A stretch of DNA of 57,843 nucleotides. Source: a bacterium. GTDB lineage: Bacteria; CAYTYR01; UBA6262. Where the stretch lies: positions 1-57,843 of the forward strand of contig JAQTPL010000009.1 of the NCBI GenBank assembly GCA_028712895.1, in the 5' to 3' direction. Below the pieces are notes generated by a model. That model worked only from the letters and a program-made list of their open reading frames with translations. It did not search any database and was not told the origin of the DNA. Made by a program: the position numbers and the translations under genes. Numbering within the stretch: the stretch's first letter is position 1; each line of letters starts with the position of its first letter. Shown one piece after another: positions 2,098 through 48,547 of this stretch.

Positions 2098-2228
2098 AAT
2101 ATCTAAATTCTAATATCTAATTTCTAAACAAATTCTAAACACGAAATTCTAAATTCTAAGCTTTTTGATATTCAAATTTTGAGCATTTAATATTGTTTAG
2201 AGTTTAGATATTAGGATTTAGTGTTTAA
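2098..2228. repeat. Heptad word array, inverted pair (word xxxCTAA)
   Basis: The left arm (2098-2159) repeats words of the form ATTCTAA/TATCTAA/TTTCTAA with mostly 7-base period; the right arm (about 2191-2228) carries the same word on the other strand (TTTAGAG, TTTAGAT). The arms can pair into a long imperfect hairpin. The right arm runs into the stop codon of the flavoprotein gene (2225-2227). The array fills the whole gap between that gene and copA. Confidence 0.75.
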
Positions 2229-3469
2229 GTTTTGCTTTGAAAAACTTGAGCCATATCAAAATTCTCGCTTAAAATAGTTTCTTTGACCTTACCAACATCA
2301 ATTTGCTGATTGATGATCTTGGTCCAAGAGAGGATATCTTTCCGGTTATTAATCAAAATGACTCCTCCGACTTTATTAGCCTTCACTAAAAGCTTGATAT
2401 ACGTACCTTTCTCCGGGTCAGACCGGCGCATCACATCATAAGCATTTTCTTGTGGATTGGAATCACCCAAACAGGTGAGATCGACCCCGGCTATCTTTAG
2501 GGTGTTGCTGGGCAGTACTCCCTTATATACCAACTTAGGCCCGTTAAGCGCATTAAAGGCGACTGTCTGAGCCTGGGCCATGGCTACCGGAATAATTCCA
2601 TACACCTGGTTATCGAATTCAGCCACATCACCACAAGCATAAATATGCTCATCATCAGTTTGCAAAAATTTATTTACCACAACTCCCTTACTCACTTTTA
2701 AGCTTGCTGTCTTGGCTAATTCAATATTAGGGCAGATACCTACGGCGATGATGACAATATGCGCCGGAATCACTTCCCCGCCTTTTAGAGTCACACTTTC
2801 TACCTGGTCGTTCCCATTGATAGAAATACATTCAGACTCTAATTTAAATTTAATACCCATGCTTTCCAGTTTAATTTTTAAAATATCCGAACCTTGCTCA
2901 TCGATCTGCCGTGATAGCAGGCTGGCATGGTGTTCTATAATTATCGGTTCCAGGCCTGCCCCCAACATGGCATACGCTATCTCCAAGCCTAAAAACCCGC
3001 CACCAAGAATAATCGCTTTTCTTTTATCGGTATCACTGGCTGGTTTCAGAGGACTGAGATATTCCAGTATATTTTGGGCATCATCAATGGTGCGCAGGGT
3101 AAAAGAACCCTTTTTCTTAACCCCTTCTATTGCCGGTACAGTGCTTGTAGCTCCATTAGCCAGGACCAGGCAATCATAAGGGTATTGTTCTCCATTCTCT
3201 AATTCTATGTTTTTTAATTTTTCATTTATTTTTACTACTTTTTTCCCAAACTTCACTTTAATTTTCTTTTCCGTATACCAGGCCCAGTTATAAAAATATA
3301 CTTCTTCGTGTTTGACGCGGCCAGCTAAAAACTCAATCAATATCGGTTTGGGATAATAATGCTCGTTTTCTTCGGTAAAAATAGTTATCTCCGCATCCTC
3401 ACTCTGGGTCCGGAAGAACTTGGCCACAGTTATCCCGCATACTCCATTACCTATAATTATTAATTTCAT
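2225..3469 (-). CDS. FAD/NAD(P)-dependent pyridine nucleotide-disulphide family oxidoreductase
   Basis: Soluble flavoprotein of the NADH:rubredoxin reductase / NirB N-terminal type. Visible: N-terminal FAD-binding GNGVCG at 7-12, second Rossmann motif GGGFLGLE at 156-163 for NAD(P)H, and the ACGDVAEF FAD motif near residue 274. No redox CxxC is seen at the re-face, so it is not a thioredoxin reductase or lipoamide dehydrogenase. A good Shine-Dalgarno (GGAGG) precedes ATG 3469. It follows a ferritin-like protein by 30 bases and a membrane thioredoxin further upstream, so it could feed electrons to a peroxide- or oxygen-reducing diiron protein. The electron acceptor is inference. Confidence 0.88.
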   Translation of the reverse strand: MKLIIIGNGVCGITVAKFFRTQSEDAEITIFTEENEHYYPKPILIEFLAGRVKHEEVYFYNWAWYTEKKIKVKFGKKVVKINEKLKNIELENGEQYPYDCLVLANGATSTVPAIEGVKKKGSFTLRTIDDAQNILEYLSPLKPASDTDKRKAIILGGGFLGLEIAYAMLGAGLEPIIIEHHASLLSRQIDEQGSDILKIKLESMGIKFKLESECISINGNDQVESVTLKGGEVIPAHIVIIAVGICPNIELAKTASLKVSKGVVVNKFLQTDDEHIYACGDVAEFDNQVYGIIPVAMAQAQTVAFNALNGPKLVYKGVLPSNTLKIAGVDLTCLGDSNPQENAYDVMRRSDPEKGTYIKLLVKANKVGGVILINNRKDILSWTKIINQQIDVGKVKETILSENFDMAQVFQSKT

Positions 3470-3499
3470 AGACCCTCCATCACCAACCGAATTAATTGT

Positions 3500-3994
3500 T
3501 TATTTTTTTAATTTTTCAAGGTTCATCAGCCGTTCGATCAGGATATTCAAATGACGGCGTTCTTCCAGTATTATTTTCTTAAATGCTTTTTTGCCTTTGC
3601 TGTTAACACTATTCTGCCAGGTTTCAGTATAGAACAGGATAGAATCCTTCTCTGTCTGTATACCAATATGGATAGCTTCATATTCGGTTAAGGCAGCCAG
3701 GCTTTCACTGGGGATACTCTTAAGATCGTAAAAAATACCCGGCCGCACCAGGTTGGCCAGATATTGACGTACTTCTTCATTCTGTCCCAGCGGCTTGTTC
3801 AACGTTACTCCTAAGGCGTTTTGCAGTTTTTTAAAGGTGTCGAAATGTTCCCGTTCTTCACTGGCTAGTTGCCGGAAGATATGCCGCGACTCGGCATTTT
3901 TTGATTTATCGGCGCAACTTTCGTAAAAATTGATGCCCTCTTCTTCCAGGTTCAGGGCCACGTCATAAGCTTCTTTTTCACTTAAATATTTCAT
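3500..3994 (-). CDS. Ferritin-like / rubrerythrin-domain diiron protein
   Basis: A 164-residue four-helix protein without a rubredoxin tail. Diiron ligand motifs are visible as two halves: EEEG (about 17-20) with EEREH, then EYEAIH with EERRH near 146-150. This is the rubrerythrin/ferritin-like (COG1633-type) pattern. Such proteins reduce peroxide or store iron in anaerobes. The start ATG has AAAGGAG upstream. It sits between a membrane-anchored thioredoxin (15-base gap) and the NAD(P)H flavoprotein (30-base gap), a likely shared transcript. The lack of the FeCys4 domain means an external electron donor is needed. Confidence 0.85.
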   Translation of the reverse strand: MKYLSEKEAYDVALNLEEEGINFYESCADKSKNAESRHIFRQLASEEREHFDTFKKLQNALGVTLNKPLGQNEEVRQYLANLVRPGIFYDLKSIPSESLAALTEYEAIHIGIQTEKDSILFYTETWQNSVNSKGKKAFKKIILEERRHLNILIERLMNLEKLKK

Positions 3995-4009
3995 CGTCTG
4001 CTCCTTTAA

Positions 4010-46939: not shown

Positions 46940-46969
46940 GCTCGACTCCTTTCAGTTATTTTTTGTTTA

Positions 46970-47053
46970 CGAATAAGTGCCGAATGATAGCTAATTACGC
47001 AAATAAACTAATTTAATTATTCGAGGCATTCGCTGTCATTCGAGTAATTCGCT
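46970..47053. repeat. Word array, inverted pair (CGAATGATAGCTAAT type)
   Basis: Words CGAATAAGTGC, CGAATGATAG, CTAATTACG followed by inverted forms TTATTCGAGGCATTCGC, TCATTCGAGTAATTCGC. It fills most of the pgm-eno gap and overlaps the stop codon of the phosphohexomutase (47052-47054). It shares an identical 15-mer with 34956-34970. Confidence 0.7.
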
Positions 47054-48488
47054 ATTTTCTATTTACCAGTTTTTTTCCCGCGTTGATAAGTTTCTGCAAT
47101 TTCGGCTTACTATTTGCTTCTGCATAATAACGAACTACCGGCTCGGTCCCGGACAAGCGCAAACCAACCCAGCTGCCATCTTCCAGTATAAACTTAAATC
47201 CGTCTAAAGTTACGATTTTTTGTACTTTGATCCCGGCTATATGTTCCGGGGGATTGTTTTTTAAGGTTTGTTTCAATTCTGCCATACGGCCTGTGGTCAC
47301 ATGGAAATTAACTCTTTCAAAAACGAACGTACCCACTTCTTTGTGTAGATCAGCCAGTATCCGGCTTAAAGGTTTTTTCCGGTAAGCGATCATTTCCGCC
47401 ACCAGCAGGCAAGCCAGGATACCGTCTTTTTCCGGTACGTGCCCATGGATAGTCAGGCCGCCGCTTTCTTCACCGCCGATGATCAATCCTTCTTTGACCA
47501 GGATATCGCCAATATATTTAAAGCCAACCGGGGTTTCGCGCACTGTCACCCCGTGTTTTTGCGCTACCGCATCAATAAAATTTGTGGTCATTACCGAACG
47601 CGCCACTACACCGTGCCATTTCCTGGTCTTCTGTAAATGGTCCAAGAGCAAAGCGATCACATGGCCCGGCTGTATATAATTACCCTGCTCATCAATGATC
47701 CCAAACCGGTCGGCATCCCCGTCAGTCCCTAGGCCCAGATGGCATTTTTCTTTTTTGACTATGTGCACTAATTCAGGCAGATTCTCATACGCAGGCTCCG
47801 GCGGCCTCCCGCCGAAAAGAACATCGCGCCAATAGTGCAGGAGATGCACTTTAACACCAGCTTCTTTTAATAAATCATCCAGGTATTCCCGCCCCGTCCC
47901 GTAAAGGACATCCACTCCTATTTTCAGGTGGGCTTTCCTGATCTCCGGTAAGTCTACAATTTTTCTTAATTTCTGCAAATACTGCGGCCGGGGATCGATC
48001 ATCAGTATTCGGCGTTTTTTAAGTGCTTCGGCAAACGGCATTTTCTTAACCAAATGCGGCTGTACCAAATACTTTTTGCAATTTTCTTCAATAGTTCTTG
48101 TAGTTTCAGGCAATGCCGGACCGCCCCAGGCTGGAGAGAACTTTATGCCATTATACTGGGAAGGATTATGGCTGGCAGTAAAATTAATTCCTCCCGAGGC
48201 CTTACGCCGGAGAATCTCAAAAGCAATAGTCGGAGTAGGAGTATCGCGCTTAGTTAGTAACGCCTGTAACCCGTTTGCGGCAATCACTGCTGATGTGATC
48301 TCAGCGAATTTTTCACTGAAAAATCTGGTATCATAGCCGACTACTACAGTCGCGGGTCGCGAGTCGCGGGTCTGGTGTTGTTCTTTTATATAATCACAGA
48401 TAGCCTGAGTGACGATTTCCACGTTTTCAAAGGTGAATTCGTCACTAATAATGCCTCGCCAACCGCTGGTCCCAAATTTTATTTCCAT
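47052..48488 (-). CDS. Phosphoglucomutase/phosphomannomutase family protein
   Basis: Alpha-D-phosphohexomutase interconverting sugar 1- and 6-phosphates. Phosphoserine loop TASHNP with Ser106, metal loop GTDGDADRFG near 252-261, sugar loop GGEESGG near 344-350 and C-terminal phosphate-binding RLSGTEPVVRYY. 478 residues. Residues 39-47 (QTRDSRPAT), between helix 1 and strand 2, are coded by a heptad word array (48349-48372), a local insertion relative to the usual IADYL...VVVGYDTRF spacing. The enzyme looks intact otherwise. It probably serves glycogen or sugar-nucleotide synthesis with the fused nucleotidyltransferase upstream. Confidence 0.93.
   Translation of the reverse strand: MEIKFGTSGWRGIISDEFTFENVEIVTQAICDYIKEQHQTRDSRPATVVVGYDTRFFSEKFAEITSAVIAANGLQALLTKRDTPTPTIAFEILRRKASGGINFTASHNPSQYNGIKFSPAWGGPALPETTRTIEENCKKYLVQPHLVKKMPFAEALKKRRILMIDPRPQYLQKLRKIVDLPEIRKAHLKIGVDVLYGTGREYLDDLLKEAGVKVHLLHYWRDVLFGGRPPEPAYENLPELVHIVKKEKCHLGLGTDGDADRFGIIDEQGNYIQPGHVIALLLDHLQKTRKWHGVVARSVMTTNFIDAVAQKHGVTVRETPVGFKYIGDILVKEGLIIGGEESGGLTIHGHVPEKDGILACLLVAEMIAYRKKPLSRILADLHKEVGTFVFERVNFHVTTGRMAELKQTLKNNPPEHIAGIKVQKIVTLDGFKFILEDGSWVGLRLSGTEPVVRYYAEANSKPKLQKLINAGKKLVNRK
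48349..48372. repeat. Heptad word array inside a coding sequence
   Basis: GTCGCGG, GTCGCGA, GTCGCGG, GTC on the plus strand, i.e. GACCCGC, GACTCGC, GACCCGC, GAC in the coding strand. In frame, no stop codon. The same word class is at 45337-45361 in an intergenic gap. Confidence 0.8.
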
Positions 48489-48513
48489 TCCTTTTTCCCT
48501 TTTTTGTCTTTTA

Positions 48514-48547
48514 CTGCCATCTGCCGTCCGCCAATTGCTATCTATCT
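48514..48547. repeat. Heptad word array (CTGCCAT/CTGCCGT type)
   Basis: CTGCCAT, CTGCCGT, CCGCCAA, TTGCTAT, CTATCT. It touches the stop codon at 48548-48550 of the fused nucleotidyltransferase gene. Same words as at 8065-8098. Confidence 0.7.

Follow-up and report, generated by a model that had tools for sequence, protein, structure and literature searches.

Heptad arrays as dispersed hairpin repeats in a draft bacterial genome: persistent sites and possibly concerted turnover of their words

Introduction

Each arm of a repetitive extragenic palindromic (REP) sequence forms a palindrome of its own and carries a GTAG-type tetranucleotide. The short tandemly repeated repetitive (STRR) sequences of heterocystous cyanobacteria are perfect heptanucleotide arrays of variable length, with several words per genome, and Rickettsia palindromic elements are small palindromes standing in frame within conserved genes, at structurally tolerated loops. 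Repeats of the heptamer TAACTGA occur in Beggiatoaceae, cyanobacteria and Bacteroidetes, in Beggiatoaceae mostly just upstream of start codons (PMC4679880). In Geobacter metallireducens, sites of four (or three to five) tandem hepta- or octanucleotides are mostly paired, one on each strand, with a variable distance between them; classes 1-4 and a 49-copy GGACCGG element were distinguished, i.e., several word classes, some of them inside genes, and the sites were read as those of a global regulator of the IHF/HU type or as regulatory RNA elements (PMC2700814). Here we describe arrays of short tandem words, mostly heptads, in a stretch of 57,843 nucleotides (contig JAQTPL010000009.1 of assembly GCA_028712895.1), called the window throughout, and in the draft genome to which it belongs, together with the fate of these words at orthologous sites.

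Materials and methods

The draft genome studied (G000, the host) comprises 1.93 Mb in 75 contigs, and the window is its contig C4. Genome-wide counts cover 1.905 of its 1.933 Mb, assembled from regions, and gene counts are approximate because genes were called by a simple hexamer script. Four genomes sharing the class of the host, or a closer rank, were available for comparison. The named relatives closest by GlmS were Elusimicrobia bacterium UBA6262 (94%), NC_groundwater_1672 (86%) and fen_1175 (80%). UBA6262, which gave a 100% match, is labelled G001; L129, L128 and L127 are taken from G001, G002 and G003, respectively, and L157 and L159 denote NC_groundwater_1672 and fen_1175. Lag matches were compared with dinucleotide shuffles of gene gaps, and arrays with a score of at least 11 were considered strong.

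Extent of the arrays

Tandem Repeats Finder (TRF) recovered period-7, -8 and -9 arrays at the places where the initial annotation of the window had put them, and the sequence was also read directly. Five-base matches in the gene gaps of the window numbered 56 at lag 7 against 5.8 in shuffled gaps (z 16), and 46 against 4.9 at lag 14. Over the gene gaps of the 1.9 Mb host genome the corresponding counts were 1535 against 210 (z 74) and 1290 against 198, with minor autocorrelation peaks at lags 8, 9 and 16. The genome-wide array scan gave 135 strong period-7 arrays against 0.3 in shuffles, as well as 24 period-8 arrays against 1, and periods 4-6 and 10-12 showed no comparable excess. The heptad arrays are thus confirmed as a genome-wide observation, and their dispersal, first claimed for the window, held under the autocorrelation check.

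Arrays within genes

Array sites often outlive their words: position, length and register are kept, and at least one word position is changed in every copy. Inside predicted coding sequences, about 30 arrays (28-31) lie in frame. One of them (48349-48372, GTCGCGG) is a window array that is not intergenic and stands in frame inside gene 47052-48488. The initial annotation had recorded neither such in-frame arrays of conserved genes nor the species-specific words at conserved sites, which are the decisive features. The coding arrays compared comprised 11 sites: three in purL, two in thiL, one each in tsaD, nadC, an M20 peptidase gene and the phosphohexomutase gene of the window, and two more. 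The names phosphohexomutase, purL, thiL and tsaD rest on family or structure matches; nadC, the M20 peptidase and the remaining genes are presumed identities, given by sequence recognition. The coding arrays fall in loops of solved homologs. The mutase array makes a longer loop preceding the VVVGYDTRF strand, the tsaD array adds four extra residues, and a purL array translates to ADGRWQMAD.

In 23 of 26 gene comparisons (17 without indel) the codons that hold an array in one species hold one in the other as well, and array copy number at coding sites was unchanged between species. Orthologous coding arrays were identical at 0.64 of positions in register compared to 0.24 when shifted, and the aligned register was the best one in 13 of 16 comparisons, for which the binomial test took a chance of 1/7 per case. 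Word phases changed in every copy numbered 20, against 4.3 +/- 1.6 when the differences were permuted. Three sites may serve as examples. At thiL site 2 the words are AACTATC/AACAATC in the host and G002, and AACTCGC/AACCCGC in G001. At purL site A the host has GCAGATG, G002 GCAGCTG and G001 GAAGCTG. The phosphohexomutase word is GACCCGC in the host, GACCAGC in G002 and G003, and CAGCGGT in G001. Amino-acid similarity could aid the agreement in register. Selection on protein cannot impose a period of 7, and therefore a process at the DNA level must act. A separate observation concerns the UBA6262 enolase gene (G001:C18:464-1750, L129), where the alignment shows one in-frame TAG, either a sequencing error or a true stop.

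Element anatomy and word families

The period-7 arm of the host genome is about 31 nt long (modal 30-32), comprising four imperfect heptads and 3 nt. At periods 7 and 8 the modal arm has four units plus 2-3 nt. Arms of about 31 nt were also found in UBA6262 and at loci of Acidobacteria, Elusimicrobia, Nitrospira and Methylomirabilota, where the period-8 mode is near 34. Elements are either single arms or two inverted arms flanking a spacer, about 75-115 bp in size and capable of forming a hairpin. Among 196 co-directional gaps with arrays, 57 had at least two detected arms and approximately 68 others a weaker inverted partner, in agreement with the inverted pairs described initially; inverted repeats scoring at least 12 were present in 281 of 822 gaps, compared with 39 after shuffling. 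In single-strand folding, window positions 24105-24207 and 21940-22047 beat all shuffles, and the single arms and the 46940-47051 element folded not, or only weakly, above them. A search for a flank of GTAG/CTAC type gave no constant tetranucleotide common to the arm families, the arms being tandem heptads. An Rfam scan returned only tRNAs and one match below gathering score that overlapped a tRNA.

Gaps aligned over at least 55 bp at 80% or more fell into clusters of 34, 25, 21, 14, 10, 7 and smaller numbers, with arms and spacer together. The two largest array-bearing clusters were AGCG (about 34 gaps) and TTTTGAG (25). The words had been called locus-specific, and they do differ between loci, with some recurring, but the existence of such families means that they are not strictly so. 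Unrelated loci share whole elements including the spacer, the most numerous of which reach tens of copies; near-identical ones lie, for instance, at C55:69499, C55:72627 and C63:9679. The shared spacers show that paired elements spread to new sites by copying of the whole unit. Clusters with longer units (GATTACACAGATTA, GAAGTAAGTATGGAAGT, CGAATGA) follow the same paired plan at periods other than 7. Host gaps such as C29:30333-30454 and C32:22962-23090 hold paired families of longer units (GATTACACAGATTA, GAAGTAAGTATGG) with inverted arms lacking a strict period of 7.

The generating process had been left open at first between several candidates. Copying of whole elements is supported. Fresh slippage at each array is disfavoured, as heptads of the AGCG family are no more alike within an array (0.744) than between elements (0.75). 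Ordinary microsatellite slippage, by which each array would be a local expansion of a chance heptad, fits the tandem structure and the few long perfect arrays, e.g., the eight copies at C66:4765-4824. It does not fit a modal length fixed near 31 nt, inverted partners, families whose spacers are conserved across unrelated loci, or a copy number that is the same between species, and we consider it highly improbable.

On the gene strand, an AGCG-family element runs from the stop codon through four N-AGCG-NN units, TAG, a spacer (often GAAA...TTTC) and the inverted arm to the ribosome-binding site. The AGCG core is approximately 97% constant across loci, and the remaining three unit positions are free. 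Unit substitutions concentrate in few phases in the host genome, UBA6262 and other phyla alike. These properties, and the arm of about 31 nt common to several phyla, are what would be expected if a DNA- or RNA-binding host protein, or its paralogs, read a core spaced by 7 nt and the cores shifted together with its specificity, with a role in mRNA 3'-end stability or chromosome organisation. The paired 7/8-mers of Geobacter metallireducens have been interpreted as IHF/HU-type regulator sites (PMC2700814). However, one genome holds at least 12 unrelated words, orthologous gaps are often without any array, and arrays within the coding sequence of purL, thiL and tsaD are hard to reconcile with a regulator site. 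Nor did arm mismatches favour G-U on the gene strand (45 against 54). We find such a protein unlikely as the explanation.

Turnover between species

The host and UBA6262 have 108 co-directional gaps in common, of which 24 carried arrays in both genomes, 8 in the host only and 13 in UBA6262 only, so that the comparison of orthologous gaps proposed in the initial annotation did reveal differences in presence and absence. The 24 doubly occupied gaps were divided into 11 with the same family and 13 with different words vs 5.6 expected (P 1e-4). The TAGCTCR form, with 34 pattern hits, is abundant only in the host species, and relatives show only the form TAGTTSA. The distribution of AGCG among genomes is patchy: the pattern was found in 20 of 290 genomes, among them the three species of the genus and the distant G092 (25 hits), but was lacking in G003, which belongs to the same family. 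The reversed-pattern control was near zero in most genomes and reached 29 in one; it is not zero everywhere because reversed words can also be array words.

UBA6262 contigs (L251-L270) hold many copies of a paired 130-150-bp element built from ATCAGGTA octads, which is rare in the host; one example is the UBA6262 ortholog of the window gap 18082-18108. In a distant genome, G235:C11:38105 (L278) is a perfect AGCGGTC heptad array of more than 17 copies, with 144 overlapping pattern matches in all.

Placement relative to genes

Arms occurred at 2.08 per kb in co-directional gaps, 3.2 in convergent and 0.18 in divergent ones, where a single array was found in the 32 gaps of the host genome. Loci of other phyla were similarly skewed (36 co-directional, 7 convergent and 2 divergent). 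The first array edge lay within 10 nt of the stop codon in 51% of cases compared to 28% under random placement. A start codon followed within 10 nt of the last edge in 8% compared to 27%; arrays thus occupy the stretch between the stop codon and the ribosome-binding site. The anchoring at gene 3' ends, initially reported for 14 of 16 arrays, is a real bias, but genome-wide it concerns only about half of them. A dedicated anchoring mechanism, as implied at first, is not called for, since avoidance of ribosome-binding sites and of divergent gaps explains the position: arrays lie near 3' ends because promoters and ribosome-binding sites are kept clear. On the reading favoured below, array position would be set by what selection tolerates, with no host function required.

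Several other candidates were tried. Period 7 could place stops in all frames as a stop-codon cassette, and words with stops made up 0.64 against 0.55 +/- 0.04 in shuffles. This was rejected as the explanation and kept as a minor effect; the stop codon was in phase with the array in only 5 of 81 close cases. A universal NAG core found no support across words. The absent G-U excess mentioned above leaves no sign of an RNA hairpin under selection, and although mismatched arms were significantly preferred in the raw AGCG data, this was gone once near copies were removed.

Arrays of the window

The arrays and elements located in the window are as follows, with the strand and the supporting evidence.

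2098-2232, minus strand: two arrays in inverted orientation in gap 1927-2224, built of 7-8-nt units of the CTAAATT/TTTAGAA family; TRF and direct reading; the orthologous UBA6262 gap has the same family.
8059-8083, minus strand: CAGATAGCGGATGGCGGAGGGCAG array that overlaps, at the stop codon, the end of a gene; other words occupy the ortholog gap.
9670-9702, minus strand: octad array TTATCACT/CTATACCACTTTATCACT; TRF and array detection.
17136-17168, minus strand: TCTACCAC octads in a gap of 42 bp; the UBA6262 gap measures 43 bp and holds GGTGTAGA octads.
20688-20826, no strand assigned: inverted GTCGCTA pair (20688-20713 and 20795-20826) in a divergent gap; the sole divergent-gap array found in this genome.
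21931-22043, no strand assigned: inverted pair of the AATATCTAAACTCTAA family in a convergent gap; the UBA6262 version is nearly identical.
24120-24198, minus strand: inverted TAGCTCA/TACGAGC pair with spacer; single-strand fold beats all shuffles (z -3.96).
28228-28257, minus strand: single arm TAGTTCA/TAGTTGA; fen_1175 (L159) has the same array, L156 and L157 a different 130-bp element.
29010-29037, minus strand: single arm TATACGC of the AGCG family; TRF and family clustering.
31109-31133, minus strand: single AAATCTC arm; in relatives the gap is empty (7 bp) or holds other elements.
34944-35011, minus strand: paired arrays of period 9-10, ACTCGAATT/AATTCGCTA, at the 3' end of a tRNA-Met; TRF and direct reading.
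45093-45157, minus strand: inverted pair TAGCTCA (45093-45116) and CTACGAA (45136-45157) between two tRNA genes; TRF.
45337-45358, minus strand: single arm GACTCGG/GACTCGC right after the stop codon of gene 45362-45649; direct reading and array detection.
46985-47051, minus strand: CGAATTA/CGAATGA paired element in a 112-bp gap (46940-47051); in three relatives the gap is 20-24 bp without an array.
48349-48372, minus strand: in-frame coding array of three GACCCGC in the phosphohexomutase gene 47052-48488; relatives have three GACCAGC or three CAGCGGT at the same codons.
48516-48547, minus strand: CTGCCAT/CCGCCAA array adjoining the stop codon of gene 48548-51052; read directly, below the detection threshold.

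At 28210-28264 the array and its flanks are near-identical in the more distant fen_1175, and the closer UBA6262 and NC_groundwater_1672 carry another element of 130 bp. This distribution would reflect loss, conversion or transfer at one gap. In the gap 28979-29045, which here holds a heptad arm, NC_groundwater_1672 has 1.6 kb extra (L157, 7554 to 9160), with at least two open stretches resembling a papain-type protease and a phospholipase D-like protein.

Mechanism

The reading we favour, tentatively and at just under an even chance, is that of REP-like dispersed hairpin elements whose sites persist and whose words turn over in concert, by dispersal combined with homogenisation within the array. 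We infer two processes. In the first, an enzyme acting in trans would copy the hairpin unit and insert it elsewhere, a dispersal similar in outcome to that of the REP doublets forming hairpins (REPINs) and bacterial interspersed mosaic elements (BIMEs). The second would be a length-neutral homogenisation within the array; the simplest route may be misaligned pairing of repeat units in replication or repair followed by mismatch correction, by which a substitution would spread to all units with their number constant. In-frame arrays would survive because such homogenisation leaves the length unchanged.

Several observations weigh against this reading. Homogenisation within the array alone predicts greater likeness within arrays than between elements, and the AGCG family does not show it (the 0.744 and 0.75 above). 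With one part of the unit constant and three positions variable, AGCG looks like a case of core constraint. At the M20 site and in two purL-B comparisons a shifted register fits better than the aligned one, so that outright replacement of words also occurs. Coding words show a weak tendency to resemble the word pool of their own genome (11 sites, label-swap P 0.027), which suggests that loci exchange words besides changing them in place. No mobilising enzyme was linked to the arrays, the Y1 transposases present being associated with other terminal repeats; a target duplication was looked for and none was found; and G098 has arrays of one family without a Y1 hit.

The likeness to the own pool also supports tract exchange between loci, i.e., ectopic gene conversion or template switching by which the current words of a genome overwrite old ones at existing sites. 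Whole words have been replaced at purL-B, tsaD and the G001 phosphohexomutase, and because arm length is nearly constant a swap would keep the frame. On the other hand, different words share little homology for recombination, and most coding pairs stay similar in register, which a random swap would not produce. As a full account we regard it as rather unlikely.

Under transposition of the REPIN type alone, by a Y1/HUH REP-associated or similar transposase, different families would be excised and re-inserted time and again at preferred targets, which would account for the word differences at one site. REPINs likewise have hairpin units with single and paired arms, lie at gene 3' ends and show bursts of copy number. 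Y1 transposase genes occur in G000-G003 and also in G092, G134, G153 and G235, distant genomes rich in AGCG, and HUH transposases are compatible with insertion without target duplication. However, the Y1 gene on C13 is flanked by GGGACGTTGTCAAGATGTCAAGAT and not by heptad families, G098 has its array family without a Y1 hit, and re-insertion does not predict register agreement in 13 of 16 comparisons together with step-like word changes in all copies. Transposition alone seems improbable to us. The host gene in question (C13:4660-5730, L014) has flanking inverted repeats GGGACGTTGTCAAGATGTCAAGAT containing two octad units, and no strong arrays lie within 3 kb of either host Y1 gene. Y1 or the REP-associated tyrosine transposase (RAYT) was rejected as the mobiliser on account of these flanks, which lack arrays. 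Rewriting by reverse transcription, as in diversity-generating retroelements or retrons, is unlikely; RVT_1 had no match in G000-G004, and control genomes and G092 were positive in the same test.

A bolder version of the concerted reading, which we consider possible but doubtful, would extend persistent sites to several phyla and have a dedicated process rewrite the words in unison, at constant length and register and even in essential genes. The word would then be a lineage-specific code turning over faster than its sites.

If the favoured reading is true, concerted evolution acts on 31-nt stretches scattered over a bacterial genome and overwrites the coding sequence of purL, thiL, tsaD and other genes with the frame intact. 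Tandem heptamers between genes of many environmental bacteria, an old puzzle, would become testable through strains at conserved coding sites, where array boundaries and empty states are unambiguous. For annotators, peptides like ADGRWQMAD or NQLSTINYQ in conserved proteins would then be array read-through.

Comparison with known systems

The TAACTGA repeats resemble the host arrays as intergenic tandem heptamers that are patchy among phyla (PMC4679880). They differ in having one word and no systematic inverted arms, whereas the host arrays have other words and avoid start codons (8% vs 27%). The STRR sequences, initially picked as the nearest analogue, share heptanucleotide tandem units and several words, but host units are imperfect, with a mode of 30-32 nt and inverted pairing. 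Rickettsia palindromic elements are alike in their in-frame insertion in loops of conserved genes, and they are longer, of one sequence family and without heptads.

A closer analogue than STRR, and the closest published description, is that of the Geobacter metallireducens sites: they share four-unit 7/8-mer arms, opposite-strand pairs, several words and some intragenic copies. Compared by the words in the legends their consensus differs, and word turnover at orthologous sites is not described in the accessible parts of that report (PMC2700814). No precedent for such turnover was found in the open-access literature.

With REPINs and BIMEs and their RAYT the host elements have in common dispersed hairpin units, single or in inverted pairs, and unit copying. 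As to an extragenic position away from promoters, divergent gaps have 0.18 arms per kb against 2.08 and 3.2 elsewhere, yet about 30 arrays lie within predicted coding sequences. The host arms are heptad arrays and not GTAG-type palindromes, and no RAYT is linked to them. We file the heptad arrays as a variant of dispersed REP-like hairpin repeats, of which the concerted turnover of words at conserved sites looks to be the new part.

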